54,612 nt of DNA, taken from the IMG/VR virus record IMGVR_UViG_3300031566_000045, positions 1 through 54,612 of that record; one strand, 5' to 3'. Below the pieces are notes generated by a model that was given only the letters and a program-made list of their open reading frames with translations, ran no database searches and was not told the origin of the DNA. Shown here in pieces: positions 5,751 through 22,525 of this stretch; position 1 is the stretch's first letter, and the number at the start of each line of letters is the position of its first letter. Both the position numbers and the translations under genes were made by a program. This DNA is from a virus.

Positions 5751-5761
5751 CGGCCTCTCCT

Positions 5762-6235: not shown

Positions 6236-6275
6236 GGTGCCTTCTCCTGTGGTGGTGGGCTTCCTCATGGACACC

Positions 6276-6360
6276 AACGTACCATGCCCGTGTAGCCGAA
6301 GCGACTACAGCGGGCGGAAAGGGCCTCGCATAACCGCTGGTCAGCGGGTTGTTCTAGAAC
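6276..6360 (-). promoter_or_regulatory. Composite promoter/operator for the 6.2-kb to left-end operon
   Basis: The 19-bp palindrome lies at 6291-6309 (minus strand TGTAGTCGCTTCGGCTACA). Its left arm supplies a -35-like TCGCTT, followed by a 17-bp spacer and TACGTT at 6276-6281. Upstream at 6328-6360 is the second element, a perfect CCGCTGGTCAGCGG palindrome beside GTTCTAGAAC. Seven nt separate the -10 box from ATG 6268. Confidence 0.75.
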
Positions 6361-7168: not shown

Positions 7169-7716
7169 CACGCTCCGCTTTCGAATGGGGCCGGCATCGG
7201 TGCGAACACCCACCCGGCGTTGATCGCCTTCATCGACCGGGTGTGGTAGAGGCAGGTCGGCCGGTCTTCCCCCCCGTCCTTCGAAGCGACGAACCGCGCC
7301 CGGGTCCGGCACTGGTGATAGTCGATCCACGCATACCCGCGCGACCCGCGCTCCCACACGCACTCGATCTTGCGGCCAGGGGCCGGCGAGAAGATCACCT
7401 CACGACCGCCGGCGAGAACCCTCGAGCCGAGCTGGCCCGAGCCGACAGCACGCCCCTCGCACGTCGAGCAGACCTGGCACCCCTCGGGAGGTTCGGCGGC
7501 CAGCCGAGCGCCGCCCTTGCCGTGTCCGATCGGGCCGCACCAGAACGTGACGGAGATCCGCCCGTCGTGGTGGAGCAGCCCCGAGCGGACCCGGTGGACG
7601 TAGTAGCTCGGTCCCCGCGTGTAGAACGGCAGCGACCGCTTCAGCGAGATCGGCCGAGGGTGAGCCGAGGTGTGCCACCCGTTCGAGTCCAGATCGTCTA
7701 GCAGGTCGACCTTCAC
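7168..7716 (-). CDS. Hypothetical protein with CxxC metal-binding segment
   Basis: A 182-residue product starting at GTG 7716 (VKVDLLDDLDSNGWH), which overlaps the stop of the preceding gene as GTGTGA. CQVCSTCEGR near the middle and spaced Cys/His residues towards the C-terminus could form a zinc site. No enzyme family is recognised. It is coupled to the methyltransferase downstream. Confidence 0.65.
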   Translation of the reverse strand: MKVDLLDDLDSNGWHTSAHPRPISLKRSLPFYTRGPSYYVHRVRSGLLHHDGRISVTFWCGPIGHGKGGARLAAEPPEGCQVCSTCEGRAVGSGQLGSRVLAGGREVIFSPAPGRKIECVWERGSRGYAWIDYHQCRTRARFVASKDGGEDRPTCLYHTRSMKAINAGWVFAPMPAPFESGA

Positions 7717-8792: not shown

Positions 8793-9028
8793 GACCCCTC
8801 CTCGAGCCACACGACGATCTTGGCGATCGTCTTCAGCAGCATCTGCGACGTGGCGATCTGGCCGCGCTCCAACCGGACGATGGTGTTGTGATGCGTCCCG
8901 ATCTCGGCGGCTGCGGCCCGGGTCGACAAACCCCGACGGCGGCGAGCTTCCTCCACCGCCGCCGGGAGCCGGTCATCGGTCAACAGCGCGAAGGCCGCGG
9001 CGAACTCGGCTGGCCTCGGCGTTCGCAT
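8789..9028 (-). CDS. XRE-family helix-turn-helix regulator
   Basis: A 79-residue protein that is almost entirely a Cro/CI-type HTH. RGLSTRAAAAEIGTHHNTIV gives helices 2 and 3, followed by RLERGQIATSQMLLKTIAKI. It is the only clear DNA-binding repressor in the window and so a candidate reader of the dispersed 19-bp operators, though nothing in the sequence links them directly. It overlaps the next gene by GTGA and lies 3 bp after the previous one, so is co-translated in the modification operon. Confidence 0.8.
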   Translation of the reverse strand: MRTPRPAEFAAAFALLTDDRLPAAVEEARRRRGLSTRAAAAEIGTHHNTIVRLERGQIATSQMLLKTIAKIVVWLEEGS

Positions 9029-9031
9029 CGC

Positions 9032-9337
9032 TCAGCTCACCGCCGCCAGAGTGGCGACCTCGGCGACCTCGCCGTCCTCGACGGTGAACTCGACGTCCCC
9101 GATGGCGCGACCGGCGACGACCCCGATCACCACGGCGATCGTCTCGACGCTCGGGACCGTCTCATCGAACTCGGCGGCGAAGGCTTCCCACGCCGCGGGG
9201 CCGAGCGCGGCGACGCTCTCGGGGCACACCGTCGACAGGAAGTCGCTCGTCTCGAGGAAGGCCACGATCCGAATCGCCTTCGCGACTCGGTTCGCCTGCG
9301 CCTTCGGGTGGCTGACCTGCTCCAGCTTGTGAGCCAT
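9032..9337 (-). CDS. Hypothetical protein
   Basis: A 101-residue protein (MAHKLEQVSHPKAQANRVAK) with AAGGAGGAG before ATG. It is Ala/Val/Glu-rich with an amphipathic middle section. No motif recognised. A palindromic operator overlapping a possible leaderless ATG lies about 45 bp upstream. Confidence 0.65.
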   Translation of the reverse strand: MAHKLEQVSHPKAQANRVAKAIRIVAFLETSDFLSTVCPESVAALGPAAWEAFAAEFDETVPSVETIAVVIGVVAGRAIGDVEFTVEDGEVAEVATLAAVS

Positions 9338-9382
9338 GTGGCTCCTCCTTGCTCAGACCGGGGCGGTTCCCCGGGTTCATCA

Positions 9383-9401
9383 TGTAGCTGACCCTACTAC
9401 A
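9383..9401 (-). promoter_or_regulatory. 19-bp operator overlapping a stop codon
   Basis: TGTAGCTGACCCTACTACA is a member of the dispersed palindrome family. It overlaps the TAG stop of the SLOG gene. On the minus strand it runs directly into ATGATG at 9382, which would open a short frame (MMNPGNRPGLSKEEP) overlapping the ribosome site of the next gene. No convincing -35/-10 pair is visible, so this may be an operator or transcription-blocking site. Confidence 0.6.
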
Positions 9402-9777
9402 CCGCTGTGACAGGATCCAGCGTGTAGCGGGTCACCGGCCTCCCGAGCTCGGCCGCCCGATCGGCGGTCCACCCGGACCCGTAGCTCGTCGCCTGGCCGC
9501 AACGGATCGAGATCAGCTCGTCGCACCGCTCGGCGATGAGCATGTTCCGGGCCTTGTACCCGTTCGGTTCCCACCGGGCGTGCAACGGGGTGATCTCCTC
9601 CACCGCCAGCTCGAGGAGCAGCGCCTCCTCGGCCGCCCACGAATCGACGCCGGACGCGCCGCCCGAGATCACCAGCTCGGGCTTCCGCTCGGCGAGCTCG
9701 GCGCGGATGATCTCACGGGCGCGCGCCTCGCCGTCGGGCGCGACGAACGTGCGGGTGCCGACGATCGCCAAGATCAT
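9397..9777 (-). CDS. SLOG/DprA-like Rossmann-fold protein (DUF2493 type)
   Basis: A 126-residue protein with the pattern of small SLOG-superfamily proteins: ILAIVGTRTF at the N-terminus, LVISGGASGVDSWAAEEA as the glycine-rich nucleotide loop, then GYKARNMLIAERCDELISI. These domains bind nucleotides or nucleotide derivatives, and some act in nucleotide-signal defence systems. ATG 9777 overlaps the preceding stop (ATGA). Neighbours are two methyltransferases and an XRE regulator, so it may sense a modified nucleotide or defence signal; that is inference. Confidence 0.8.
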   Translation of the reverse strand: MILAIVGTRTFVAPDGEARAREIIRAELAERKPELVISGGASGVDSWAAEEALLLELAVEEITPLHARWEPNGYKARNMLIAERCDELISIRCGQATSYGSGWTADRAAELGRPVTRYTLDPVTAV

Positions 9778-10517
9778 GCGGGGTCCTTCCGGTCGAAGAT
9801 GAACAGGGCGTCGTGCATCCCGAACCATTGCGGGAGCGACACCTCCGACACCTGGAGCCACCGCTGAGCGCCGGCGAGCTCGCAGACGCACTCGTACTCA
9901 TCGGGGTCGAAGTCGAACTCGTGGACCCGACAGAGCGGCGACCAGCCGAGCCGGGCGTGCAACACCTCATCACCGGTGCAACCCTCGCCGGGTTCGCCGA
10001 TGTAGACCATCCGCTTCCCGCCGGCCGTCCAGAACGCCTCCTCGACGGCCGCGCCGATCTCGTCGCCGTATGGGGGCCAGGAGAGGACGAGCGTGCGCTC
10101 AGGGTGATCTGAGGCCGCCTGACGGGCATCCTGACGACCGATGGGGAACCACTGGCGGCCGCCCTCGGCGTGCCACGGGTTCCCGTAGCCGCACAAGGAG
10201 CTGGTGATCTCGGCCGCTTCCTCGGGGTCGTCGCCGGGGAGGATCACATCCGAAGCGATCACATCGCCGCCGGCCTGGTCGACCAGCATCGCCCAATAGC
10301 CGGTGCCCGCCATCGGGTCGATGATCGGCCCGCAGGCGACGAGCGCCATGACCGCCTCGAGGGTCGGGACCGACCACGAGAACTCGATGCACGCTTCGCG
10401 GCGACCGCGCCCCGAATCGAGGAGCCGGTCTACCTGATCGAAGCCCGCGTTGAACGGATCGCCGACCCCCATGAAGCCGGTGGCGCGCTGGTAACGGTCG
10501 AGCAGTTCGATGTCCAT
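9774..10517 (-). CDS. SAM-dependent methyltransferase-like protein
   Basis: A 247-residue protein with DPMAGTG at residues 67-73 (SAM-binding loop) and SWPPYGDE from 146 at the position of a catalytic motif IV. This alpha-like order and the atypical tetrapeptide differ from ordinary DNA methylases, so the substrate may be DNA, RNA, protein or a small molecule. ATG 10517 lies 4 nt after the preceding stop. It is the second methyltransferase of the operon and overlaps the SLOG gene by ATGA. Confidence 0.75.
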   Translation of the reverse strand: MDIELLDRYQRATGFMGVGDPFNAGFDQVDRLLDSGRGRREACIEFSWSVPTLEAVMALVACGPIIDPMAGTGYWAMLVDQAGGDVIASDVILPGDDPEEAAEITSSLCGYGNPWHAEGGRQWFPIGRQDARQAASDHPERTLVLSWPPYGDEIGAAVEEAFWTAGGKRMVYIGEPGEGCTGDEVLHARLGWSPLCRVHEFDFDPDEYECVCELAGAQRWLQVSEVSLPQWFGMHDALFIFDRKDPA

Positions 10518-10521
10518 GCGC

Positions 10522-11244
10522 TCATCTGACCGTCTGGAGCTTCTCGCCGCTCGGGAGTTTCCACCAGTCCCACCCGTTCGCCGACTGGCGACCCGCGGCG
10601 TTCTTCGCTGCGGTGCTCGGCGAGTTGTAGGTCTCACCGGCCACCTCGACGTGCCCCGACGCTGTGACGACCCCGCGGTACTCGCCGTGGTGCAGCTCGG
10701 TGCCCGCCTTGATCCGGCCAGCGGCGATCGCCTCGGCGAGCGCGCCTTCCTTGGCGGCCTTGTCGGGTCGACGCTTCGGCTTCACCGCCTCCTCGAAGTC
10801 CTCGCCCTTCAGCTCCTCGACCTCCGGTTCGTCGGCCGGTTCCGCTGGCGGGGCCTCGGGTGGAGCTTCCGGCGCGACCTCGGGCGGGGCTTCGACGGTC
10901 TCGGTGACCGGAGCCTCCTCCTCGGGCGGGGCCTCAGCGACGAACTCCTCGGCAGCCTCGCCGGTCGGGTCGCCGATCTTGACCGCCTTCGTGCCCTTCT
11001 TGACCCGGATCTTCTCGGGTCGCAACGCCCGATGCATCCCCCGGCCCTTCGTGCCGCCGTAGCAGGACACCCACCGGCTCGACCCATCAGGCGAGATCGC
11101 GAGGTGGATGAACTTGAACGTCGCACCCGGCTCGCCTTGGGCATGGATCTCGTCGCCCTTCACCAGCACCGTGCCGTCCTCGAGGGCGACCTCATTCAGC
11201 ACCTGTCGGCGCGCCTCGTCGGCGTCGGGCAGTTGTCCGCTCAT
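10522..11244 (-). CDS. RAMA-domain protein with acidic linker
   Basis: A 240-residue protein in three parts. Residues 1-75 form an N-terminal domain containing SRWVSCYGGTKGRGMH. A long Pro/Glu/Ala-rich linker follows. The last 70 residues match the RAMA (restriction adenine methylase-associated) module: AAGRIKAGTELHHGEYRG, then YNSPSTAAKNAAG and NGWDWWKLPSG. RAMA domains accompany DNA-modification and restriction proteins and are predicted to recognise modified DNA. As first gene of an operon with two methyltransferases it may read the phage mark. The second ATG (11244) is chosen because GGAGGA lies 5 nt before it. Confidence 0.8.
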   Translation of the reverse strand: MSGQLPDADEARRQVLNEVALEDGTVLVKGDEIHAQGEPGATFKFIHLAISPDGSSRWVSCYGGTKGRGMHRALRPEKIRVKKGTKAVKIGDPTGEAAEEFVAEAPPEEEAPVTETVEAPPEVAPEAPPEAPPAEPADEPEVEELKGEDFEEAVKPKRRPDKAAKEGALAEAIAAGRIKAGTELHHGEYRGVVTASGHVEVAGETYNSPSTAAKNAAGRQSANGWDWWKLPSGEKLQTVR

Positions 11245-11274
11245 CATGTTCCTCCGGTTGTCGGGTACCGGTGG

Positions 11275-11295
11275 ATCGTAGCCTGCGAAGCTACA
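11275..11295 (-). promoter_or_regulatory. Operator/promoter of the modification operon
   Basis: On the minus strand TGTAGCTTCGCAGGCTACG at 11277-11295 runs into ATCC, so its right arm provides the -10 box TACGAT (11275-11280). A leader of about 25 nt with GGAGGA then precedes ATG 11244. This is the second register of the operator family. Confidence 0.65.
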
Positions 11296-11312
11296 GGCAG
11301 CAAGGACGCCGG

Positions 11313-12407
11313 CTAGTCGGCGAAACGGGCCAGAGCCTTCTGCGCCCGCTCGGTCCGGCGCACCAGCTCGTACAGCTCGGCCAAGGTCGAACCGCCGAGA
11401 TCCTCGTCCGAGTAGTCGACCCCGTGGGCCTCGAGCCACTCCGCGGCCTCGCCCTCGCCGAACCCCGGGAACTGCAGATTCGACATGCACCGGCCGGTCC
11501 TCACGACCGCCGGGTTCAGCTCGTCCATCGCCACGTTCGTGGTGATCAACGTCAGGACGTTGAGGCCCTGGCCGATGATGCCGTCGGCCACGTTCAGCAG
11601 CCGGGCGACGTCCTGGCCCTTCGACTCTCGGGACCCGACGTTCATGAACTCGTCGCCGTCCTCGATGACCAGCAGCAGCCAGTCCTTGCGGCCAGCCGAG
11701 TCGAAGAGCAGGTCGTTGAGGTACGTCGGGTCGCCGAAGAACCGGTCGGCGTCGGTCACCACCGAAGCGGCGCACCAGTCACGCCACTCCGAGATCAGCG
11801 ACAGGATCGCCCGCGTCTTCCCGGTCCCCGGAGGGCCGTGGAACAGCACGAGCTTCCCGCCGGCCCCCGGCTCCTCGAGCGCCATGAGCTCGGCGAGCTC
11901 GGCGCGGGTCGAGGCCGGGTAGTTCTCGGCGACGTCCTCGAACTTCTGGACCTCGATGTCGCGGCGGCGAGCGTACGCGCCACCGGTCATCGGGTTCTGC
12001 ATCCAGAACATGACCGGCACCATGTTGTCGGGACGCGGTGGCGGCGGCGGCGGGGGAGGCGGCTCGGGGAGCATCGACGCCATCGACGCGATCCACTTCT
12101 GCGCTCGAGCGTCGGCGCGGACCGCGCAGATCAGCGTCCACTCGTCGCCCCACTCGCACGACAGGGCGATCACCGAGTCCTCGGTCTCGGCGAGGAGCGT
12201 CGTCTCGTAGCCGATGCTGGCCTCGTACTTCACCGTCGCGACCCTGGAGATGAACGTCTTCACGTCGTCCCACGGCGTCAGCGAGTAGAAGCGGTGCGCT
12301 CGCACCAGCTCGAACTCGCCGGCGGCGATCGCAGCGTTGATGCGGTCCAGCGGGACCCCCGCGGGTGACGTGTTCGTCACCGGCAGCGTGAGCGTGACCT
12401 CGGCCAT
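11313..12407 (-). CDS. AAA+ ATPase (DUF5925-like), first paralogue
   Basis: The 364-residue protein has GPPGTGKT (191-198, Walker A), WLLLVIEDGDEF (243-254, Walker B with DE) and a TTN sensor-1-like segment, then RTGRC. An N-terminal beta-rich domain of about 110 residues is joined by a run of ten prolines. It resembles the actinobacterial DUF5925-type AAA proteins I know of. It is paralogous to the next gene, from which it is separated by 11 bp. Such proteins may remodel a partner; no substrate can be read from the sequence. Confidence 0.8.
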   Translation of the reverse strand: MAEVTLTLPVTNTSPAGVPLDRINAAIAAGEFELVRAHRFYSLTPWDDVKTFISRVATVKYEASIGYETTLLAETEDSVIALSCEWGDEWTLICAVRADARAQKWIASMASMLPEPPPPPPPPPRPDNMVPVMFWMQNPMTGGAYARRRDIEVQKFEDVAENYPASTRAELAELMALEEPGAGGKLVLFHGPPGTGKTRAILSLISEWRDWCAASVVTDADRFFGDPTYLNDLLFDSAGRKDWLLLVIEDGDEFMNVGSRESKGQDVARLLNVADGIIGQGLNVLTLITTNVAMDELNPAVVRTGRCMSNLQFPGFGEGEAAEWLEAHGVDYSDEDLGGSTLAELYELVRRTERAQKALARFAD

Positions 12408-12418
12408 GTCGGTTCTCC

Positions 12419-13501
12419 TCAGTCGAATCGGCCGAGCACGTCGGCCAGATGGTCGGAGCGACGCTTCGCCCCGTACAGATCGGCCAGCGTCATCCCGTCC
12501 TCGGGAACCTCGACACCCTCGAGCTGGCGGGAAGCCAGCCACGACTCGGCCTCGGCCTGGTCGAAGGCAGGGTAGTGGAGGTTCGTCATGCAACGCCCCG
12601 TCCTCGCCACCGCCGGATTCAGCGAACCCATCTCGACGTTCGTCGTGATGATGGTCAGCACGTTCAGCCCTTGGCCGACGATCCCGTCGCCGAGGTTGAG
12701 CAGCCGGCTGAGCGCCTGCCCGGTTCGACTCTTGGCGTCGACGTCCATGAACTCGTCGCCGTCCTCCACGATGAGCACCCGCCACCGGCCGTCATCGAAG
12801 CCGCCGCCGAGGATCACGTCGTTCATGTAGTCGAGGTGGTTGAAGAACGAGTCGGGGTCGGTGATGACGTGCGGCTCGCACCACTCGCGCCACGCGGCCA
12901 GGAGCGCCATGATCGACCGGGTCTTGCCGGTACCCGGCGGCCCATGAAGGAGCACCAGCTTGCCGCCAGCCCCCGGGTCGCGCATCGTGACGAGCTTCCC
13001 GAGCTCGGCCCGGACCGACTCGGGGTAGTTCCCGGCGATCTCCGACCAGCCCTGGACCTCGATCGGCCGCAGATACGAGTACCCGCCGGCCATCGGGTGC
13101 TTCGCCCAAAAGTTCGTGTAGAGCCGACCGTCGTCGCTGACCGCTTCGAACGGGGGGAGCATCCCGGTCATCGCGGCGGCCCACCGCTCGGTGTTCGACG
13201 CCAGGTTCGACGCGACGGCCCAATGCCACTCGTGCCACCGCGGCGAGTATTCGACCCACAACACCCCGCCGCCGTCCTCGAGGAGGAGCGACGTTCCGCC
13301 GCCGCACCCCTCGGCTTCGACCGCGGCGGCCCCGAAGGCCTTCTCAAGCACGGGTCGGACCTCGGTGAGATCGACCGGCGAGTCGCAGGACCCGGTTCGG
13401 ATGTGGGCGTACCCGTCGGCCATGAGCTTCGCCAGCAGCCGCTGCTCGGGCACCGATCCGGGCGAAACGCGGGAGGTGTCGGTGATGATCTGGCGATCCA
13501 T
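12419..13501 (-). CDS. AAA+ ATPase (DUF5925-like), second paralogue
   Basis: A 360-residue paralogue with GPPGTGKT at 187-194, LIVEDGDEFMDV as Walker B, IITTNVEMG as sensor 1 and RTGRC. The ATPase halves of the pair are strongly alike, while the first 120 residues differ, suggesting two adaptors on one motor, perhaps a hetero-oligomer. ATG 13501 is preferred because TAGGCT (a -10 box) lies 7 nt before it, giving a leaderless transcript; no ribosome site is present. Confidence 0.8.
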   Translation of the reverse strand: MDRQIITDTSRVSPGSVPEQRLLAKLMADGYAHIRTGSCDSPVDLTEVRPVLEKAFGAAAVEAEGCGGGTSLLLEDGGGVLWVEYSPRWHEWHWAVASNLASNTERWAAAMTGMLPPFEAVSDDGRLYTNFWAKHPMAGGYSYLRPIEVQGWSEIAGNYPESVRAELGKLVTMRDPGAGGKLVLLHGPPGTGKTRSIMALLAAWREWCEPHVITDPDSFFNHLDYMNDVILGGGFDDGRWRVLIVEDGDEFMDVDAKSRTGQALSRLLNLGDGIVGQGLNVLTIITTNVEMGSLNPAVARTGRCMTNLHYPAFDQAEAESWLASRQLEGVEVPEDGMTLADLYGAKRRSDHLADVLGRFD

Positions 13502-13544
13502 GCGGGCCAGCCTATTCCAGCCGAGGGCCACGGAACAGGAACCC

Positions 13545-13582
13545 CGGAACGAGAAGAAGCCCCCGGCCGAAGCCGAGGGCCC
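13545..13582 (-). terminator. Terminator of RNA A
   Basis: On the minus strand GCCCTCGGC-TTCG-GCCGGGGGC forms a 9-bp hairpin with one G:T pair and a UUCG loop, followed by a pyrimidine-rich CTTCTTCTCG tract. The hairpin start and loop nearly match the terminator of RNA B. Confidence 0.7.
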
Positions 13583-14449
13583 CTCGAGCTGCTACGCCAA
13601 CGCCGGCCCCGAGGAGCTTCGGTGGGAGGTGTTGAGCGCGGCCAGACGTATCCATCGGGCCTGCTCGCTGGCCGTCTCCCATGCTCATCACACCCGGGCG
13701 ATCACTCGCTCCCGGCCCCCTCACCGGCTGGACTACTTAGCCGTGTTCCTTGGTACCGCTTCCCGACGCTTGGGTTGTCTCAACCGCGCACGCCGGGGCC
13801 CTCTTGGGGGAGGTTCCTCAGCCAGCCACCCCTTCACCGGTCTCCCTCGCGGTGGCGCTCCGAGTCGACCGGTGTCCGCACGTTCGTCGGCGCTCGCCCC
13901 GGAGGGGAGTCGCCGGCCTACTTGGTCTTGGATCGGTTCGCTGAAGTCGCCGCCCCCGAGTCGGGTCCGACGCTGGCGTAGCAGCTCGAGTCGGTGACCT
14001 TCATGGGTTCACCGGGGTTGCGATGCTAGGCCGACCACCCCGGCTCGTCGCCGGGTTTACGCTGCTGCGCCGATCGCTCGACGCCGACCTCTCAGCTCTA
14101 GAAGGGCTTCGCCACCGCTTGCGTGTTGCCCACCCTCTCGGGCCGGTTTGGCATGCTCCCATTTCCTCCGCCCTCGCAGCGTCGCTGGCATGTCCCATGC
14201 CCCTGCCCGCGTTACCGGCAGGGGGAGGAGGTTCCAGCTCGGCCACGGCCCCCGGTGTTCCCGAGGGCATTACTGCGGGCGAGTCCTGAGCTCGCTGACC
14301 CGATGACCCCATGAGGGCCACCGACTCTGCTCTCGACCAGCCGCCTCGGTGGAGCGAGCGTCGCATCTGGTTCCGTCTCCGCTACCCCATGCCGGGGAGG
14401 CGCTCCGAGCGGCAGGGCCGAAGGAGGTTGGCACTTGCTCGTGCCTAGC

Positions 14450-14466
14450 CGGGGGTTCGAACCCCG
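14450..14466 (-). other. tRNA T-arm-like hairpin inside RNA A
   Basis: On the minus strand CGGGG-TTCGAAC-CCCCG is a canonical T-stem and T-loop. The segment that should be the 3' acceptor strand (GCTAGGC) has no partner upstream, and no D or anticodon arm is found, so it is not a complete tRNA. Confidence 0.55.
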
Positions 14467-14975
14467 TGTCTGTGACGCTCGGCCCACCGAGGCGGCCGGT
14501 CGAGCTTCCCGATCGTGAGCACCTTGATCGGGCTTGGCCCGAGCCTCCGACCCCCATGCTCTCCCCACTTCGCTGCAGCTCCGTGGTTCTCATCCGGGGT
14601 TCTTCGGCTCGTTCTCCTCGTTCACTCGCTTTGCCTTTTCGACCTCGTCCAGCCTTCGTTCAGGGGTCGCTCACCTCGAGGGGTGAGTCGTGGTCGTTAG
14701 CCGTCAGGGCTGGAGTCGTTGGCGTTACTTCGGGGCGGTACCTCCGAGGTGCCAAGCCCGATCAAGGTGCTCTCGATCGGTTCGCCTCACTTGGTACGAG
14801 CGCCAGGCGATCGGCGCTCCGAGGGCTTCCCCCTCGGTCTGCCTTGTTCGCTACTGCCGGGGTTGGCTCCCCTGCCCCCTCTCGGGTGGTCTCACCGGTG
14901 GCTGGTGCTGCCCGCCGCTGTTGCGACTCGCCCCTACTTGCTTGCCGGGTATGTGGGGGCTTCCCGACGAGGACC

Positions 14976-15052
14976 AGCATGGCATACCGCTGTAGCCGAA
15001 TCAACTACAAACGGGGGTTCTCGGGGAACAACTCGCTGACCAGCGGAAACGC
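14976..15052 (-). promoter_or_regulatory. Composite promoter/operator of RNA A
   Basis: The 19-bp palindrome lies at 14991-15009. Minus-strand TTGATT (14999-15004), a 17-bp spacer and CATGCT (14976-14981) form the promoter. The second element with CGCTGACCAGCG and GTTCTCGGGGAAC lies immediately upstream at 15016-15052, in the arrangement seen before RNA B. Confidence 0.7.
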
Positions 15053-15148
15053 CCCCGAGCTCAGCGCCAATTCCGCCAGATGAACCGGACCACCACCACA
15101 ACCGAGCGCCACCACAGCCCCGACGCCGGCCAGCAGTTCCCAGCTCAC
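15005..15148 (-). CDS. Possible 47-residue protein upstream of RNA A
   Basis: GTG 15148 overlaps the previous stop (GTGA). The frame VSWELLAGVGAVVALG runs to a TAG inside the RNA A operator. The N-terminal half is hydrophobic enough for one membrane segment. The coupling supports it, but part of the frame reads through the regulatory element, so it may be fortuitous. Confidence 0.4.
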   Translation of the reverse strand: MSWELLAGVGAVVALGCGGGPVHLAELALSSGAFPLVSELFPENPRL

Positions 15149-15279
15149 GTCGAGACCGGTTCCCGCTCAGGGACTGGCGTCGAAGGCGTCGCGGGTGACG
15201 GCTCGCGCCTCGCCGGCTCCGTCGCCGGGGCTGGCACCACCAGCGGTTCCTCCCGAATCGGCTTCCCGATCTCACCCAT
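15145..15279 (-). CDS. Possible 44-residue Pro/Glu-rich protein
   Basis: ATG 15279 lies inside the end of the upstream gene (GATGGGTGA overlap). The product MGEIGKPIREEPLVV is Pro/Glu/Ala-rich and probably unstructured. Evidence is the overlap with both neighbours only. Confidence 0.45.
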   Translation of the reverse strand: MGEIGKPIREEPLVVPAPATEPARREPSPATPSTPVPEREPVST

Positions 15280-16219
15280 CTTCGTCCTCCTCCATCTCGA
15301 GCGCGCCGATCACTCGCCGACGCACGCCGTACTTCACGAGCCAGTGCAGGTAGATCCCGGCCATCGCCGTCCACAGCACCACCCCGAACCAACTGGCCGA
15401 CGCCAGGTCCGATCCGAGGAACAGCAACGCGGCGACCAGGCCGACGACGTGGCCGACCACGGAGAGCCGGCCCGGCATCGACGCTCGCACCTGACTCGCA
15501 GCGGAGCGCCTCACCTCGGCGAACACCGACGCCATGAACTGCGCTACCTCGCGGTTCACCTCGGCCGCCGACATCGGGAACGGCTCCACCGGGATCTCGT
15601 ACACCTCGCCCAACGCCTCAAGATCAGCCGGTGCCACACGCCTCACCTCGGCCGCGATCGTCACCAGCTCGAGCGCCGACGGGGCCATGTCAATCCCGTC
15701 GGCGAGCTCGGCGATCAGCGCGGGATCGATCGACTGATGATCCCCCGGCGGCGGATAGACGAACAGCTTCGACGGCCTCGCGAACTGCGCCCGGTACCCC
15801 TTGACATGCTCGTACACGTCGCCCCACAGCTCGACCTGACCGACCACCACCTGCCAGCCCGAATTGAACACGCCGAGCTTGTGGGTCGGGAACTCGATCT
15901 CGTGGAGCAACGCCTTCAGCGACCGGTAGGCGTAGAGGCCGCACCCGTACCCGTCGTGGTTCGCCGCGTCGCCAGGGCACGGGCACCTCGAGCACGCAGC
16001 GTCGCGGCCACCGTTGTGCGAACCCGGAACGCAGAACGCTCGCGTCGGTTCGCCGGGACGCCAAGGCAGGCGGGTGCGCGGCGAGAGGAGCAGCGGGTGG
16101 CCCTGGCCGCCAGCTCGCACCCACCACCGGTAGCCGACGATCGGCTCGGGCACATCAGGAACCCGGAACCCCTCGCCGAAGTCGAGCGGCCACATCGGCG
16201 ACGACGGGTCACTCGCCAT
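15272..16219 (-). CDS. CGLYA-type Cys-rich protein with C-terminal membrane segments
   Basis: A 315-residue protein. The N-terminal 180 residues contain CSRCPCPGDAANHDGYGCGL and a downstream VELWGDVYEHVKGYRAQFAR block. Both are shared with the upstream neighbour and typical of a widespread actinobacterial/phage family of unknown function. Residues about 255-305 (VVGHVVGLVAALLFLG and FGVVLWTAMAGIYLHWL) form two membrane helices, so the Cys domain may be held at the membrane. It overlaps the upstream gene by 11 nt. Confidence 0.7.
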   Translation of the reverse strand: MASDPSSPMWPLDFGEGFRVPDVPEPIVGYRWWVRAGGQGHPLLLSPRTRLPWRPGEPTRAFCVPGSHNGGRDAACSRCPCPGDAANHDGYGCGLYAYRSLKALLHEIEFPTHKLGVFNSGWQVVVGQVELWGDVYEHVKGYRAQFARPSKLFVYPPPGDHQSIDPALIAELADGIDMAPSALELVTIAAEVRRVAPADLEALGEVYEIPVEPFPMSAAEVNREVAQFMASVFAEVRRSAASQVRASMPGRLSVVGHVVGLVAALLFLGSDLASASWFGVVLWTAMAGIYLHWLVKYGVRRRVIGALEMEEDEDG

Positions 16220-17156
16220 CGTCGTCCTCGAGGCCGAAGTCGGCGGGGTCGAGGTGGAGCATCTCGATCAGCCGGCGCATGTTCGCTTCGCCGCTCATCG
16301 ACTGGACCGCGGTCAGCTCCATGACCTCGCGGTGCTTCCGAGCTCGGGCACCGAGATCCGGTTCGTAGCCGTTCGCCATCAGCTCGCGGGCGTAATGGAT
16401 CGGATCGACCTCCTCATCGACCACGACAGGCGTCTCACGGCCCGCTAAGGCCATCCGGTAGACCTCCTCGACGGATACCGCCGAGCGGGGCCTGAGAAGC
16501 GGCACACGGTAGATCTGCGCCAGGAACGAGAGGGCGGCGAGGTAGTCGAGCATGTGGCGCTGACTCGAGCGGCTCCCGACCATCGCCAGCTCCCACCCGT
16601 TCCGATCGGCGAAGGCCAAGGGGAGGCCGATGCCGGTCACCCGGGCGTGGGACCCGCGGTAGCCGTAGTCGTGGTCGTAGACGGTGCCCCACATCTCGAT
16701 CCGGCCCCACGCCCTCGAGATCAGCGGCGACTCGGCGGCAAGCTTGCCGGGCAGCTTGAACCCGTAGATCCCGCAGCCGTACCCCTCATGACCCGCGGCC
16801 GTCGGCGACGGGCACGCCCGGCACACGTCGCGGTCGGGATAGGTGTACCGGGCCGGGACCCCGAACGGGAACCGGATCATCCCATTCTCGACCACTTGGG
16901 GGTGATGGTCGCCGTCCGACCACGGGCACCCCGCCCGCGCCTCGCGACCCGGCTCCCACACCCCGTGGTTGTACGTCGACTGGAGCCGCGAGTCGCCACC
17001 AACCGGGAACGGGAACGCCCCGGAAGCCTCAACCGGGATCTGGCCCCACTGGACCTGCCACTGGCGGTACGCGACGAGCGGCGTCGGAACGTCGGGGATC
17101 ACGACCGAGCCGGACCCGAACGGATCCCCCTGACCGTTGAAGGCGTTGGTGCCCAT
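16209..17156 (-). CDS. CGIYG-type Cys-rich protein
   Basis: A 315-residue paralogue of the downstream gene, without membrane helices. CRACPSPTAAGHEGYGCGIY and IEMWGTVYDHDYGYRGSHAR correspond to the shared Cys and WG-V-Y-GYR blocks. The start has no ribosome site but follows TAACCT by 6 nt, which suggests a leaderless mRNA. That -10 box overlaps the stop of the gene before it. Function unknown; the paired Cys clusters suggest a metal site. Confidence 0.7.
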   Translation of the reverse strand: MGTNAFNGQGDPFGSGSVVIPDVPTPLVAYRQWQVQWGQIPVEASGAFPFPVGGDSRLQSTYNHGVWEPGREARAGCPWSDGDHHPQVVENGMIRFPFGVPARYTYPDRDVCRACPSPTAAGHEGYGCGIYGFKLPGKLAAESPLISRAWGRIEMWGTVYDHDYGYRGSHARVTGIGLPLAFADRNGWELAMVGSRSSQRHMLDYLAALSFLAQIYRVPLLRPRSAVSVEEVYRMALAGRETPVVVDEEVDPIHYARELMANGYEPDLGARARKHREVMELTAVQSMSGEANMRRLIEMLHLDPADFGLEDDDGE

Positions 17157-17165
17157 GCCGCGAGG

Positions 17166-17450
17166 TTACGCGAGGACCCGCGCCGAGATCGCTGCCATCA
17201 CGATCTCGCGCCAGCCCGAGTCCAGCTCCAGCACCTTCACCACCGGGAAGTCCCACCGGCCCTGCTGCATCGCCCAAGCGATGTCCACGATGTTCTTCTC
17301 GCCCGTGCTCAGCGCGGCGTACCGCGGCTGGGCGCTCGGCATCACCGTGAGGGCTCCGTCGGTGATCCACTCACCGATCGCCCAATGGTCGGCGAGCTCG
17401 GCGAGTACCAACCCTGCCGAGTAGTTGTCATTTCCGGGTGTCGCAGCCAT
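17166..17450 (-). CDS. Hypothetical protein, divergent from exonuclease gene
   Basis: A 94-residue protein (MAATPGNDNYSAGLVLAELA) with AGGAGGAG about 6 nt before ATG. It has Trp-rich, mixed alpha/beta composition, with no Cys pairs and no recognised domain. Its promoter carries the 19-bp palindrome and faces away from the plus-strand genes starting at 17564, so this gap is a switch point between transcription directions. Confidence 0.65.
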   Translation of the reverse strand: MAATPGNDNYSAGLVLAELADHWAIGEWITDGALTVMPSAQPRYAALSTGEKNIVDIAWAMQQGRWDFPVVKVLELDSGWREIVMAAISARVLA

Positions 17451-17481
17451 GTCGGCTCCTCCTGGTTTGGCGGTCCCGACG

Positions 17482-17502
17482 ACTGTAGCTCCGAAGGCTA
17501 CG
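17482..17502 (-). promoter_or_regulatory. Operator/promoter at divergent gap
   Basis: TGTAGCTCCGAAGGCTACG at 17484-17502. On the minus strand the arm extends to TACAGT (17482-17487), the -10 box for the 17450 gene. On the plus side CTACGGTCC near 17530 is a -10-like box for the exonuclease gene without the palindrome. Confidence 0.6.
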
Positions 17503-17563
17503 GACCCGCAACTACTCCGGGTGCGGTGCTACGGTCCACCGGCACCGATAAAGGAGACGGCGA

Positions 17564-18142
17564 ATGCCTGAAGCGAAGCACCTCCTCTGGTTTGACCTGG
17601 AGACCACCGGCACCGACGAGGCCGAGGACAAGATCCTTGAAGTCGGATCGATCCTCACCGGGGTCGACCCGCCGTTCGAAACGCTCTCCGAGTTCAGCGG
17701 GGTCGTCCACTACCCGGCGACGGTCGCTCACCTGATGAACGACTTCGTGCTCGAAATGCACACCGGGAACGGTCTGCTCGAGGCGGTCGAGCGGTCGCCG
17801 CTCTCGCTGGTCGAGGTAGAGGCGATGCTCATCGAATCGGTCCTCGTGCCGAACGGGGCGAAGCCTCACCGGGTGCTGCTGGCCGGCTCGGGCGTCTCGC
17901 ACTTCGATCGCCGGTTCGTTCACCGTCAGATGCCCACCCTCGAGGCGTGGCTCCAGTACCCGCACCTCGACGTGGGCGTCATCCGCCGCGGCCTGTGGCT
18001 CGCCGGGCGAGGCGACCTCGTCCCCGAGTCGGGCGACGGCGACCTCAAGAACCACCGGGGCCTGGACGACGCCCGCATGCACCTCGCCGAGTGGCGCGCC
18101 TACGCGGCGATGATCGACCAGTTCGTCCACCACCCGGCCTGA
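17564..18142 (+). CDS. DEDDh 3'-5' exonuclease (oligoribonuclease-like)
   Basis: A 192-residue protein with all DEDDh motifs: LLWFDLETTGTDEAED (D11 and E13), VSHFDRRFVHRQM in the middle and NHRGLDDARMHLAEW near the end. Length and the VLEMHTGNGLL segment fit oligoribonuclease, which removes 2-5-nt RNAs, but a DNA exonuclease or proofreading role is possible. AAAGGAGACGG precedes ATG. It opens the rightward gene block. Confidence 0.85.
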   Translation: MPEAKHLLWFDLETTGTDEAEDKILEVGSILTGVDPPFETLSEFSGVVHYPATVAHLMNDFVLEMHTGNGLLEAVERSPLSLVEVEAMLIESVLVPNGAKPHRVLLAGSGVSHFDRRFVHRQMPTLEAWLQYPHLDVGVIRRGLWLAGRGDLVPESGDGDLKNHRGLDDARMHLAEWRAYAAMIDQFVHHPA

Positions 18143-18176
18143 CCTCACCACAACCACAGAAAGAGGAGGACCCACC

Positions 18177-18551
18177 ATGCCAGAATCCGACCGCCAGGTT
18201 CGGCCATTCGCCGACTTCCTGGCCGATCAGCGCAACGGGCTGACGCACCTCGAGCTCGGCGACGCGCTCAACGCGTTGCTCGAGGCGGTGACCGACACCG
18301 GCAAGAGCGGGAAGATGACGCTCACGATCTCGGTGAAGCCCGAAGGGCAGATGGTGATCGTGAAGGACAAGATCGCCGTCACGCTCCCCGAGGCCGACCG
18401 CGACCCGTCGCTCTACTTCGTGGACGAGGACTGCAACCTCTCCCGCGACAACCCGATGCAACCCCGGCTGCCGCTCCGTGACGTGAGCACGCCGCCGCCA
18501 GACAAGGAAGTCGACCCCGAGACCGGGGAGATCAGGGAGGTGGGATCGTGA
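18177..18551 (+). CDS. Conserved-looking phage hypothetical protein
   Basis: A 124-residue protein, MPESDRQVRPFADFLADQRN, with GAGGAGG before ATG. The central stretch MTLTISVKPEGQMVIVKDKI predicts a beta sheet; the tail is acidic and Pro-rich. It resembles a small protein often found before DUF2303 genes in actinophages. Overlap with the next gene (GTGA) supports co-translation. No catalytic motif seen. Confidence 0.7.
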   Translation: MPESDRQVRPFADFLADQRNGLTHLELGDALNALLEAVTDTGKSGKMTLTISVKPEGQMVIVKDKIAVTLPEADRDPSLYFVDEDCNLSRDNPMQPRLPLRDVSTPPPDKEVDPETGEIREVGS

Positions 18552-19399
18552 GCGATCCGACGACGAACATCCTCGAGGCCACCGCAGGCGACGCCGCGGC
18601 CATCATCGAGCAGGCACAGAAGGCCGTCGCCCCCCGCAAGGTCGAACCGGGCGAGGTGTTCATGGTCGTCGCGAACGGCCGCACCGAGCTGGTCAACACC
18701 CTCGGCCTGGCCGCCGCCCCGCCACGCAAGACCGGCCCGGCGATCTTCTACACCCACGACTCGCTGAGCAGGTACGTCAACGAGCACGCCGGCCCCGGGT
18801 CGGCGCTCTTCGCCAACATCGAGGCGTCGAAGGTCATCGGTGTCCTCAACGGGCACGTCCCCGAGGGGGAGACCGCCGGGTGGCATGACCACACGGCGAC
18901 GCTCGCTCTGCGCCACACTCCCGAGTGGGACCGCTGGACCGCCAAGGACGGGGGTCTCATGGGCCAGCAGGAGTTCGCCGAGCACCTCGAGCTCGGCCAG
19001 CTCGAGATCGTGGAACCCGAGGCGGCGACGATGGTGGAGCTGGCACGCACCTTCGAAGCCAACACGGCGGTCGCGTTCAAGGAGGCGATCGTCCTCCAGT
19101 CGGGCGAGCGGAAGCTCATGTACGACGAGACCACCGTGGCGAAGGCCGGCCAGAAGGGCGACATCACGATCCCGAAGGAGTTCGTGATCGGGGTCGCGCC
19201 CTACGAGGGCAGCGACCGGTACCGGGTCACCTGCCAGCTCCGCTACCGGATCCGAGAGGGCCGGCTGCAGATCGGGTACGCGATGGTCCGGCCCCGCGAG
19301 GTGCTCCGGTCAGCGTTCGGTGACATCGTGACGGCGATCGAGGAAGCCACCGAGATGACGGCCTTCCACGGCACGCCGCAGCCCGGTATCAAGCTCTGA
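18548..19399 (+). CDS. DUF2303 family protein (YfdQ-like)
   Basis: A 283-residue protein with features of DUF2303: an N-terminal helix, HDHTATLALRHTPEWDRW, MGQQEFAEHLE and a C-terminal beta-rich half (YRVTCQLRYRIREGRLQIGY). The family is common in phages and of unknown biochemical role. GTG 18548 overlaps the upstream stop and has GGGAGG upstream. A hairpin follows the stop. Confidence 0.8.
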   Translation: MSDPTTNILEATAGDAAAIIEQAQKAVAPRKVEPGEVFMVVANGRTELVNTLGLAAAPPRKTGPAIFYTHDSLSRYVNEHAGPGSALFANIEASKVIGVLNGHVPEGETAGWHDHTATLALRHTPEWDRWTAKDGGLMGQQEFAEHLELGQLEIVEPEAATMVELARTFEANTAVAFKEAIVLQSGERKLMYDETTVAKAGQKGDITIPKEFVIGVAPYEGSDRYRVTCQLRYRIREGRLQIGYAMVRPREVLRSAFGDIVTAIEEATEMTAFHGTPQPGIKL

Positions 19400-19420
19400 C
19401 CTGGCGGTCAGTTGCGGCGG

Positions 19421-19450
19421 CCCCGGTGGTTCCTTCGCGGAACCCCGGGG
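19421..19450 (+). terminator. Probable terminator after DUF2303 gene
   Basis: CCCCGG-GGTTCC around TTCG and GGAACC-CCGGGG form a long hairpin with one bulged T, followed by TCGTTG. The T tract is weak, as often in actinobacterial terminators. Confidence 0.5.
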
Positions 19451-19476
19451 TCGTTGCGCGCCTACGCTCGGTTGGC

Positions 19477-20259
19477 ATGGCGGGTGGGGATGAGCTGCGT
19501 CACAAGCTCAGGGTGGGGATGGACGTAGACGGGGTGCTCTACCCGTTCGTGGACCGGTTCCGCGACTGGCTTGTCTCCCGAGGCCATGACCGGGCCGAGC
19601 TCGGCGAGCCGACGGTCTGGTCGTTCCACCGGGAGGACTGGGGCCTCACGACCGAGGAGTGGATGGCCGAGTTCGTCGCCGGGATCGAGGCGGGCGTGAT
19701 CTTCGGGCCGTCGCCGGCGATCGAGGGCGCGGTGGAAGCGATGCTGGCGATCACCTCGGCGGGCGACGAGCTGCACCTCGTCACGTCGCGCAACGTCCCG
19801 ACGGTGGAGGCGACGGCCAGGCGGTCGACGTTCGCTTGGCTCGGCGAGCTCGGGGTCCCGTTCGACTCGGTGACGGTGAGCCACGACAAGGGTGCGGTCG
19901 AGACCGACGTGTTCCTCGAGGACTCGGTCGACAACTACGAGGCGCTCGAGGCGATGGGCGAGACGGTGCCGGTCCTGTTCACTCAGCCGTACAACGGCGA
20001 CCACCCGGGGCTGCGGGTCGACAGCCACGCCGAGTTCGTGGCGCTGCTGGACGCCTTGCGCCATGACCTGCGAGAGGCCCCTGACGGCGCTGGTGCGGGC
20101 TGCGACCGGTGCGGCGGGTGGTGGACGTGGGAGCACGTCGATCTCACGCTGACGGGCGTGTGCGAGGGCGAGGCGTTGATCGTGGGCGACGCTCACCCCT
20201 ACGCCGACCTGTGGCCGGGCCGGCCCGAGGGCGATCCCGAGGACGCCAGCGACGCCTGA
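19477..20259 (+). CDS. HAD-superfamily 5'(3')-nucleotidase-like protein
   Basis: A 260-residue protein with HAD motif I (DVDGVLYPF near residue 17), motif II (LVTSRN), a lysine region (SHDKG) and motif IV (VFLEDSVDN). This resembles deoxynucleotidase-type phosphatases, which adjust nucleotide pools. A C-terminal CDRCGGWWTWEHVD segment adds one CxxC. ATG 19477 is chosen over an upstream frame extension because TACGCT lies 8 nt before it and no ribosome site is present. Confidence 0.8.
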   Translation: MAGGDELRHKLRVGMDVDGVLYPFVDRFRDWLVSRGHDRAELGEPTVWSFHREDWGLTTEEWMAEFVAGIEAGVIFGPSPAIEGAVEAMLAITSAGDELHLVTSRNVPTVEATARRSTFAWLGELGVPFDSVTVSHDKGAVETDVFLEDSVDNYEALEAMGETVPVLFTQPYNGDHPGLRVDSHAEFVALLDALRHDLREAPDGAGAGCDRCGGWWTWEHVDLTLTGVCEGEALIVGDAHPYADLWPGRPEGDPEDASDA

Positions 20260-20282
20260 TCCTCGGCGATCCCACGCCGAGC

Positions 20283-20376
20283 TGTAGCTTCTTCGGCTAC
20301 ATAGATGCTGGTCAGGGCGTTGTTCCCTCGGAACCCCTCTTTGTAGTTGACTCGGCTACAGCGGGGAAGTTACGTT
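20283..20376 (+). promoter_or_regulatory. Double-operator composite promoter of RNA B
   Basis: Two palindromes lie 40 bp apart: TGTAGCTTCTTCGGCTACA (20283-20301) and TGTAGTTGACTCGGCTACA (20342-20360). Between them (20307-20334) is the second element, GCTGGTCAGGGCGTTGTT with GTTCCCTCGGAAC. TTGACT (20347-20352), 17 bp and TTACGT (20370-20375) make the promoter. This is the only site with two operators. Confidence 0.75.
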
Positions 20377-21890
20377 GTCCTCGTAAGCAAGACGGGAAGC
20401 CCCCACAAGACCCGGGGCGAGTCGCCAGGCCGAGAGGCCGAAGCCATAAGGGCTCGAGCGGCGCAAGGTCGGCACCGGACCAACTGGTGAGACTACGAGG
20501 GCAAGCCTCGGGCAGCGGAGCAACCGCAGCCGGACACGGCGAACAAAGCAACGATCGACGCTCAAGCGGGCCTCCCGCCGGAGCGACTAACGGACGAGCC
20601 CGGCAGGGCGAGTGAGGCAAAGCGGAGCGGGTGGCGTCAGGCCAGCAGGCCAAGTCACCCCCACAGCGCACCCGAGCAACCAACGAGAACGAGCACCGCC
20701 AACCGGCGGGAGGCCCGCTTGAGCGTCGATCAGCCACCTCGAGGCGTAAGCCTCGGCGAATCGGAGCGGGATCCGAACGGCTCAACGCAGCCTCGGGGTG
20801 AAGGATTACGGGACAGCTCACCGAAGCGCCCGAGCCCGGAAAGCATGAAAGCTTTGAAGCGTCAGCGCCGGGATAGCGGGAGGAGCGCGGTGAGCTGGAA
20901 CCGACATAGGCAGCCCCGGAGCGTTGCGCCGGTTGAGGGAAACCCCCTCGGGCGAACACTCACAACGAGGCTGCCGAACAGGAGCAGAGGCCAACGCCGA
21001 CGACGCTCCGAACCGGTCGCCGGGACCGGGTGGCGCAAGCCACCGAACCCCGGCAAGCTCGCAACAACCTCGGCCAGTCGAACGACTCGCCGAGGCGCAA
21101 CAGACGGCGATGGACCTCTAGCCCACGGGAACGGTCAGTAGTACCGGGGGCTCCCACTAACCGGGTAACCGGCGGGTAAAACGGAGGCGTCGAGCTGGTG
21201 GCAGCCAGCTCGGCCAAGCCCGACGATCGAACCGCATACCCAGCCTCGGCTGGAAGCAGCGGCCACGGGGTCGGATCACTTGAACCACTCAATGACGCGC
21301 CGCCCACAACGGGCGGCCATGAGGTAGGGACCAGCCACCCGAGAGGGTGCCGGATCGCAGACCAAGCGACCGGGGAAACTGAGATAACCGCTGGCCCGAT
21401 CGAGGAGCTCCTCGGTCGGCCTCGCTGCCACGAGGAACCCTGGGCAATCGCAAGGCGAGCAGCGCCGGCCCCCTCGGGGGCAAGGCAGCGCCGCCACGGA
21501 CTAGCACCGACGAGCCGGATACGGCGAAGCGGTCGGGGGGAGACCCGCCCCCTTCTGGCAAACGACAACAAACGGGCCCGGCATCGCGACCGGGAGGGGG
21601 CCGCTCCGACTCCTCAGATAAACCCCGGAGCAGACTTCGCAACGAGCAGCAGCAGGCCTCGAGCCGAGCAGCGCCGCCAGAATCGAAACCGACCAACGAG
21701 CGAGAGAAGGTGATACGAGAACCACGCCGCCGAGTGGCGGAGCAGCGAAGCCCGAACCCGGGAATGAAGTCGCCAAGCGCGACCGCTCGGCCCCGGCGGA
21801 TGATGGGCTGCAACCACTCACTCACGCCACGGCACGGCAGCCGGAAGCGGATCGGCCCCCGAGGCCGGGACGCCCCGAGAGGGGCGGGCA

Positions 21891-21905
21891 GGGGTTCAAC
21901 TCCCC
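21891..21905 (+). other. tRNA/tmRNA T-arm-like hairpin inside RNA B
   Basis: GGGG-TTCAACT-CCCC resembles a tRNA or tmRNA T-arm, but the following CGGTGGCA has no acceptor partner nearby and no alanine-tRNA-like half is found, so it is not called tmRNA. Confidence 0.5.
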
Positions 21906-22210
21906 CCGGTGGCACTCAGCTCACTACCACGCCCGACAGGACCAAGGGCCGGGTCGGCACGCCGCAAGGCTGGGACCGACTACGAACCGCGGCCGACGGG
22001 GCCGGGGAGTGAGCACAACCTGCGAGGCGGTGACGCCGGCCGAGGTGCCGGACAAACCACCAGGGGACTCACGCGGCCCGACGCCGCCAGCCTGATCAAC
22101 TGGCGTCGAGCGGAGCACCGGACGTGAGGAACAACCGGATCGGGTTCGCAAAGCTGGGTTGCCCCCGGCGTCGCATCTCGGTCGGCGTGACCGCCTCGCC
22201 ATCACGGACC

Positions 22211-22250
22211 GCCCTCGGGGCCTTCGGGCCTCGGGGGCCTTTCGTCGTTC
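22211..22250 (+). terminator. Terminator of RNA B
   Basis: GCCCTCGGGGCC-TTCG-GGCCTCGGGGGC (22211-22238) pairs over 12 bp including two G:T pairs, with a UUCG loop, followed by CTTTCGTCGTTC. It is the strongest intrinsic terminator seen in the window. Confidence 0.85.
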
Positions 22251-22269
22251 TGGCCCGATGCTGGATGCG

Positions 22270-22290
22270 CGTAGCCTCGCAGGCTACGGT
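22270..22290 (+). promoter_or_regulatory. Operator with -10 box in its right arm
   Basis: CGTAGCCTCGCAGGCTACG (22270-22288) continues to TACGGT (22285-22290). Seven nt later is ATG 22298, so the mRNA should be leaderless. Confidence 0.7.
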
Positions 22291-22297
22291 CCCCGGC

Positions 22298-22525
22298 ATG
22301 GCTGATGAATCCACCCGGTACCGCATCGAGGTCAACGTCACCACCGTGGCCCGCTCACCCGACGGTCGCCCCGTCGCCGGTCGCCGCATCATGCGGCAGG
22401 AGTTCATGCTCCACGCCGACGACGACGACACCGCCCTCGCCCACGTCGCCGAGTACGCCGGCCGAGCCGCCGAGCAGGAACGGACCCGGCTGAAGGCGAC
22501 GGACCCGACCACGCAGATGCCGTGA
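22298..22525 (+). CDS. Small hypothetical protein, leaderless
   Basis: A 75-residue protein (MADESTRYRIEVNVTTVARS) with a predicted beta hairpin then an acidic DDDDTALAHVAEYAG helix. No ribosome site; the start follows the -10 box by 7 nt. Overlaps the next gene by GTGA. Function unknown. Confidence 0.7.
   Translation: MADESTRYRIEVNVTTVARSPDGRPVAGRRIMRQEFMLHADDDDTALAHVAEYAGRAAEQERTRLKATDPTTQMP

Follow-up and report, generated by a model that had tools for sequence, protein, structure and literature searches.

Two long stretches without genes stand in a window of 54,612 nucleotides of viral DNA, which comprises positions 1 to 54,612 of the IMG/VR record IMGVR_UViG_3300031566_000045, and the question raised by this locus is what they encode. 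Block A (13545–14974, minus strand) corresponds to a putative giant RNA of ~1.43 kb whose 5′ end is placed near 14974, and block B (20377–22245, plus strand) to one of ~1.87 kb. An initial annotation, made from the sequence alone, had proposed that they are paralogous giant structured RNAs. The analysis reported here shows that the blocks are non-coding and structured, that domain 1 of block A is conserved with covariation, and that the two blocks have a control region in common.

Coding potential, composition and folding

Positions 13502–15271 and 20260–22297 were left empty by a codon-usage gene caller, and the best open reading frame touching either block scored 7.2 compared with at least 13.5 for called genes. 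Coding sequence was ruled out by this result, which agrees with the gene-free blocks of about 1.4 kb (minus) and 1.9 kb (plus) first described. They had also been called A-rich and T-poor on the transcribed strand, and this was borne out by measurement: the A and T fractions are 0.206 and 0.112 in block A and 0.222 and 0.088 in block B, as against 0.145 and 0.165 on the plus strand at 1–13500 and 0.168 and 0.132 from 22301 on.

When compared with dinucleotide shuffles, the sense strands of A and B fold with z values of −10.2 and −8.3 and the antisense strands with −7.5 and −4.8, while three coding stretches of the phage gave −0.7, 0.3 and 1.0; as 12 shuffles were used for each, the z values are rough. 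By a strict count, block B has seven perfect GNRA-capped hairpins on the sense strand and none on the antisense strand (0.57 in shuffles), and block A has one (0.43 in shuffles), so that the many such hairpins reported for both blocks are real for B and not for A. The description of the blocks as giant structured RNAs holds; they match no Rfam family, and both are almost certainly non-coding structured RNA.

Domain 1 of block A is a member of a conserved RNA family

Most of block A is closed by four pairs of 30–36-nt arms. The first domain (14509–14780, minus strand; z −6.4) is bounded by a 30-nt helix, P0, with arms at 14509–14538 and 14751–14780. By BLAST, block A matched a gene-free gap of record G052 (IMGVR_UViG_3300020233_000057) at 65.8% identity over 225 nt (E 3.9e-15). 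Short parts of this core match 190 Mycobacterium or Mycolicibacterium phage records, over 69–70 nt at ~80% with the G052 copy and over ~30 nt at 97% with A, and the annotation at these places is "none" or "hypothetical protein" among the 40 matches listed for each query.

A search for the motif TGACGGCTAACGANCAC returned 36 stretches of viral contigs. L289 and L301 were dropped as AT-rich matches inside genes which fail the covariance model described next, L314 is on the same contig as L268, L305 was dropped because it is cut by the locus end, and seven near-duplicates were removed, giving a set of 28 members. Fifteen of these were used for alignment A8 and for the covariance model R1, which was built from a trimmed version of the 15-member alignment; left out were block A, L309 (present in alignment A6) and 11 members with a long hairpin between two motifs. 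R1 finds block A at 122.7 bits (14604–14752, minus strand; E 1.1e-26), with the next match in the window at 15.6 bits, and when run on 40 sources it found the core in 38, L289 and L301 being the misses. Over 39 other whole phage records, including the 15 of the training set, it matched 31, once each, isolated mycobacteriophages among them, and had no match in the other eight (G002, G030, G051, Mimi, Phendrix, Sixama, Pumpernickel and DSL-LC01). A search of 39 sources, including the rest of the window's contig, yielded matches only in G052 and, weakly, G005, and the stretches examined of G009, G033, G034, G053, G054 and L133 yielded none. The Bixzunavirus Dandelion, Issimir and the Myrnavirus ScoobyDoobyDoo were confirmed with R1, and in Dandelion and Issimir the annotation leaves a gap of ~360 nt where the core lies. 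A weak and divergent member is present at L115 6768–6919 (38.4 bits).

Covariation in the core family is strong. In A8, from which block A is absent, 27 of the 34 predicted pairs have both partners changed in at least one sequence with the pairing kept. In alignment A10, which has 34 distinct rows with block A included and was fitted to the R1 structure, 92.8% of cells are paired compared with 66.4% in shuffles, double-changed cells number 233 compared with 69.6 (at most 43 for slid structures), and the covariation score is 0.609 compared with 0.164 (at most 0.094 for slid versions); pair types show no excess (58 and 56.4). The search for covariation suggested by the initial annotation has therefore succeeded for one domain of block A. 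The best ungapped closing helix, with mismatches allowed, spans 18–30 positions in 24 of the 28 members and 9–13 in the remaining four, in divergent sequence and without a shuffle control; block A, where P0 spans 27 positions by this measure, has the long form. Domain 1 of block A is a complete copy of this conserved RNA family of actinophages, which is absent from Rfam.

The core recurs inside long gene-free stretches in G055 (described below) and L308, where it lies in a stretch of 1.38 kb with a z value of −7.0; seven other core-holding stretches gave values from −3.6 to +0.8.

A self-complementary hairpin loop

A hairpin downstream of the core carries an 8-mer that can pair with itself in 24 of the 28 members, compared with 5.35 in shuffles; with Watson-Crick pairs only (no G-U) the figures are 21 and 1.57. 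The pattern was framed after the alignment had been seen. Six different 8-mers occur among the members (GTGCGCAC, GTGGCCAC, GTTGCAAC, GGTGCACC, GGTGCATC and GCTGCAGC), and two close relatives, L284 and L308, show a symmetrical difference, with GTGGCCAC in one and GTCCGGAC in the other, both of which are self-complementary. Block A also carries such an 8-mer by this test (GCTGCAGC), and its hairpin-loop 8-mer GCUGCAGC (14572–14579, minus strand) is a candidate kissing loop. Because a two-pair stem with a free tetraloop needs no self-complementary middle four, a loop-loop contact between two molecules would best account for the pattern. The 8-mer loops therefore suggest that homo-oligomers are made, an oligomeric mechanism to which we would give a little less than an even chance; a cause at the DNA level, such as a protein site, may also underlie the 8-mer.

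The remaining domains of block A and the module of block B

Domain 2 of block A (14332–14504, minus strand) has 34-nt arms that are 88% complementary and contains a T-arm-like hairpin, CGGGG-UUCGAAC-CCCCG. It is followed by domain 3 (13988–14327, minus strand), with 36-nt arms 81% complementary, and domain 4 (13583–13990, minus strand), with 30-nt arms 90% complementary.

Block B has three arm pairs of 27–31 nt. One is a perfect 29-nt inverted repeat (20553–20731, plus strand; arms 20553–20581 and 20703–20731) closing a 121-nt domain, and another, of 27-nt arms 89% complementary, lies near the 3′ end (22022–22199, plus strand). The best R1 match in block B reached 8.2 bits with filters off, which rules the block out as a diverged member of the core family. 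Its own module of ~180 nt (21279–21458, plus strand; 21280–21465 by local BLAST) is common to putative transcript T3 of record G055 (also L304, IMGVR_UViG_3300036982_000579), the sole relative of B in the 2.4 Mb of loci searched, at 62.8% identity over 191 nt (E 8e-7). By eye, the two copies form like hairpins with different stem letters. Model R2, made from two sequences, finds those two by construction, and its scores elsewhere of 15.5 and 11.7 bits were not counted. A search with the B module gave only two matches, at E 0.03, both inside Microbacterium phage genes, and the G055 copy gave none.

G055 is related to the window phage in its head-tail and tail genes. It contains a gene-free block of 3,015 bp (L304 8733–11748) in which operator-like sites precede three putative transcripts. 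For T2 and T3 folding exceeds that of shuffles (z −6.6 and −5.5), and the two have a 20-nt leader string, CAACTTGAAAACAGAGACAA, in common, while T1 shows no such excess (z −1.0). The R1 core of G055 is on the strand opposite the relative of B, as A is opposite B in the window, and a second pair of 38-nt arms adjoins it.

A common control region

The operator TGTAG-N9-CTACA has 19 sites in the window at up to two mismatches, compared with 3.15 expected and with none of 100 shuffles reaching 19, and it is found just upstream of both block starts. Before block A stands TGTAGTTGATTCGGCTACA (14991–15009, minus strand), with a −35-like TTGATT inside it; before block B stands TGTAGTTGACTCGGCTACA (20342–20360, plus strand), with a −35-like TTGACT inside it and a −10-like TACGTT following, and a second copy is present at 20283–20301 (plus strand). 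The proposal that the blocks are tied to a phage operator network is supported by these counts. By eye, many of the operator copies hold a hexamer starting with TTG, then a −10-like hexamer and soon after it a start codon, so that these protein genes look nearly leaderless; A and B, unlike these genes, begin with non-coding sequence. A scan for the sigma-70 consensus found no promoter in 13400–22400, and the −35 and −10 elements were for this reason read by eye from the phage's own operators. Of the promoter and operator type said to be the same for both blocks, the operator is confirmed and the promoter is seen only by eye.

The leader of block A (14923–14974, minus strand; GTCCTCGT..CGGGAAGCCCCCACA..GGGGCGAGTCGC) and that of block B (20377–20425, plus strand) align at TCCTCGT, CGGGAAGCCCCCAC, CCC and GGGGCGAGTCGC, with a score of 24.5 compared with a maximum of 23.0 in 2000 dinucleotide shuffles, and the claim that A and B have sequence in common from their starts is upheld. 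The two leaders show no better folding than shuffles (z 0.70 and −0.85). The bodies of A and B gave an alignment score of 135.5 (shuffle mean 108, maximum 126.5 in 60), which is not taken as proof of common descent. The proposed paralogy is consequently upheld in part: promoter, operator and a leader of ~50 nt speak for it, and the unconvincing body alignment, the failure of R1 to find B and the different module of B speak against it. In viral contigs the exact leader pattern matched only the phage's own contig. The 14-mer GGGAAGCCCCCACA matched at least 119 stretches, and among the 80 matches listed none was homologue-like except the phage's own two; L211, a match which a script had marked as gene-free and A-rich, was rejected, as the sequence lies inside a gene in the near copies L163 and L178.

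UUCG-loop hairpins end both blocks as first described. That of A (13559–13580, minus strand) is terminator-like, is followed by TTCTTC and was flagged by the terminator scan at 13574–13558, and that of B (22211–22239, plus strand), with fewer T in a weak tail, was not flagged. The scan gave 6 in total, no clear excess over shuffles (3.8, sd 1.8).

The 17-mer GTGACCAGCGGTTATGC adjoins phage operators at window positions 6328, 33107 and 38397, with one to three mismatches, which suggests a second upstream regulatory box. Eight of the 11 GTGACCAGCGGTTATGC-like sites in the window (0.04 expected) lie in a 3.6-kb gene-free stretch at 41537–45114. This stretch was considered as a third copy of the blocks and rejected, given its weak fold z values (−2.4 to −4.2) and weak alignments (best E 0.003, with part of B); it is possibly an origin, partition or regulatory region.

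Comparison with known RNA families

At Rfam gathering scores, one tRNA was found in the window and nothing in the blocks, and at E≤5 the only matches in the blocks were far below the gathering scores of their families. The models of GOLLD (RF02032) and ROOL had no match in either block at E≤5, and those of OLE, HEARO, group I and II introns and 6S RNA had none in the blocks; GOLLD had none at E≤10 across the 128.7-kb contig which carries block B. In ten other core-bearing loci there was no Rfam match to the core family, and none to GOLLD or ROOL at E≤0.1. Since no Rfam model matched, the blocks fall outside GOLLD, ROOL, HEARO, OLE and the group I and II introns, the families against which the initial annotation had recommended a search. 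Neither megablast nor blastn gave a match when the whole blocks were searched against phages. An ARAGORN call of tRNA-Arg(ccg) inside block B (21826–21915) was rejected as a genuine tRNA, there being no match to RF00005.

According to PMC12286853, GOLLD and ROOL are ornate phage RNAs whose functions are not known; they assemble into homo-oligomers through kissing loops and are often found close to tRNA islands. GOLLD is described there as a phage or prophage RNA, in many cases of more than 800 nt, multi-domain and often near tRNA islands, all of which recalls the blocks; its homo-oligomeric cage has kissing loops and A-minor contacts, while oligomers of A and B would be an extrapolation, and its model is unmatched in the window's contig. 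ROOL is likewise presented there as a phage-borne ornate RNA without described function that forms a homo-oligomeric cage; it differs in that its model has no match here and that the present locus has two RNAs with a common leader and operator. The same paper describes OLE as a large ornate RNA that dimerises, a likeness accompanied by an unmatched model. A structured RNA of ~430 nt in Mycobacterium tRNA arrays, near tRNA and tmRNA genes, is described in PMC5966550; it resembles the blocks, by description alone, in its actinobacterial setting near such genes. As one of the papers cited by PMC12286853 deals with GOLLD in Mycobacterium tRNA arrays, we infer from the two sources that the ~430-nt RNA is GOLLD.

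Among open-licence PMC papers, a collection outside which most subscription papers and preprints fall, no title or abstract found in the searches describes the core family. It is absent from Rfam 15. Loop-loop oligomerisation also has a precedent in the phi29 packaging RNA, a phage RNA that is much smaller and whose loops are complementary in pairs and not self-complementary.

The phage and the surrounding genes

Two stretches of the window (4,833 and 11,257 bases) are identical to parts of the IMG/VR contig IMGVR_UViG_3300031539_000004 (128,695 bp), in which block B is present, identical over its full length. The remainder of that contig carries genes for a major head protein, a portal protein and a DnaB-like helicase (PHROGs). 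Matches to the head protein were found in 730 phage records, most of them from Mycobacterium, Gordonia and Microbacterium phages and none reaching 60% identity. We read the window as probably part of a large tailed phage of actinobacteria, to which no isolated phage in the searched collection is closely related.

Directly downstream of block A are tandem AAA ATPase genes (11313–13501; 44% identical), and between the blocks are genes for tandem 315-aa proteins (15272–17156; 38% identical to each other) which have no Pfam or PHROGs match. In G052, relatives of these twin proteins have tRNA arrays on both sides, and tmRNA genes are present in G052 and G002; in the window, blocks A and B flank the twin proteins and there is no array like that of G052. 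This tRNA setting is at most suggestive of a tie to ROOL and GOLLD. In relatives of the window phage, tRNA arrays and tmRNA genes lie at L142 2666–4097 and 6448–7835 and at L110 5438–11934. Protein searches found one locus for DUF2303, three for a 690-aa protein and three for the AAA proteins, the phage's own contig included; the 690-aa protein, which has no Pfam match, and the leader pattern had no match in genome contigs. A search with the major capsid protein led to 80 loci, and block B gave short matches in three of the 50 records of that set against which it was searched. The annotation of the actinophage DSL-LC01 has no gap comparable to the blocks.

Weighing the explanations

The explanation that we favour, at about even strength, is that A and B are phage RNAs of the modular ornate kind, controlled by a phage operator and associating with themselves as ROOL and GOLLD do. 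A repressor-type operator with a −35-like hexamer inside it would control the promoters of A and B as it would those of other phage genes. Each RNA would consist of the common leader of ~50 nt and then a chain of domains, several of them closed by their own 27–36-nt helix, with domain 1 of A a copy of the core family and B carrying a different module. Once the operator is free, the RNAs would be made and fold without protein, could associate into homo-oligomers through the self-complementary hairpin loop (GCUGCAGC in A), and might then work like ROOL and GOLLD and provide the infecting phage with an RNA scaffold or compartment.

Several observations count against this explanation. The transcripts are putative, and transcription, repressor control, oligomerisation and the compartment or scaffold role are what we infer from sequence; the analogy with GOLLD and ROOL finds no sequence or model match. 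Domains 2–4 of A have no relative better than E 0.007 among the loci searched, and a second BLAST tool gives the pair of B and G055 an E value of 0.3. Four of the 28 members fail the palindrome pattern, and by eye L291, one of the 24 that show it, is out of register. Nor is kilobase size a property of the family, since the gene-free gap ranges from 393 to 1642 bases in the 20 members where it is uncut by the locus end. Folding hardly exceeds that of shuffles in L277 (z −0.2), L287_core (+0.8), L291 (−1.5), L290 (−2.3), L282 (−2.8) and L280 (−3.6) and in the core copy of G052 (−1.85). The A-type stretch of G055 has no TGTAG-N9-CTACA site upstream and folds equally on both strands (z −3.1 and −3.3).

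The main rival is that each block is the precursor of several separate structured RNAs. In ribosomal RNA operons, processing stems are cut by a double-strand RNase; the long closing helices could be stems of this kind, with domain 1 of A set free as an RNA which other phages produce on its own. Domain 1 with P0 does match a whole stand-alone element elsewhere (the 18–30-position helix of 24 members, counted without shuffles), the other domains of A are closed by their own 30–36-nt arms, and the core occupies the ~360-nt gap of Dandelion and Issimir. The common leader and the self-complementary loop are left unexplained by such processing, and no stand-alone relative of the other domains was found among the loci searched (best E 0.007). 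We regard this rival as possible and less probable than self-associating ornate RNAs.

It is improbable that the RNAs regulate or mimic, by binding host RNA polymerase, ribosomes or tRNAs, with the common leader acting in cis, for example in antitermination that lets polymerase cross the structured body. Between the two RNAs, which otherwise align poorly, the leader is indeed the most conserved stretch, T2 and T3 of G055 have another common leader string (CAACTTGAAAACAGAGACAA), and A has a T-arm-like hairpin and B the ARAGORN tRNA-like call. Yet the leaders fold no better than shuffles, the tRNA call is unsupported by the Rfam tRNA model, and no Rfam family, 6S RNA included, is matched.

It is very unlikely that A and B belong to GOLLD or ROOL as divergent members: the phage setting, the size, the fold of several domains and the tRNA arrays at the same genes in G052 would fit, and the searches of the blocks, of the 128.7-kb contig (for GOLLD) and of the ten other core-bearing loci found neither. 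Equally unlikely are decayed tRNA arrays or non-functional spacer folding through its base composition, for which the tRNA arrays of G052 at the genes lying between A and B can be cited and against which stand the dinucleotide-shuffle controls, the strand-biased GNRA hairpins in B, the common leader and operators and the covariation over 34 distinct rows, so that for domain 1 of A this is contradicted.

Significance

A structured RNA family that is not in Rfam occurs in isolated phages of Mycobacterium that are grown on M. smegmatis, for which genetics is available, and the role of ornate phage RNAs becomes directly testable because the family occurs in such phages. The loop pattern yields a simple prediction on self-association. 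The window phage and G055 together suggest that a small conserved core can be enlarged, domain by domain, into a kilobase RNA, and that like operators can run several such RNAs. As a broader proposal, which we consider doubtful at present, large actinophages may encode modular self-assembling RNA particles: each genome would have one core that docks by a self-complementary loop, helix-closed domains would have been grafted on in some lineages to give kilobase RNAs, and a subset of phages would run several of these as one operator-controlled set with a common leader, produced jointly as the building units of an RNA compartment used in infection.

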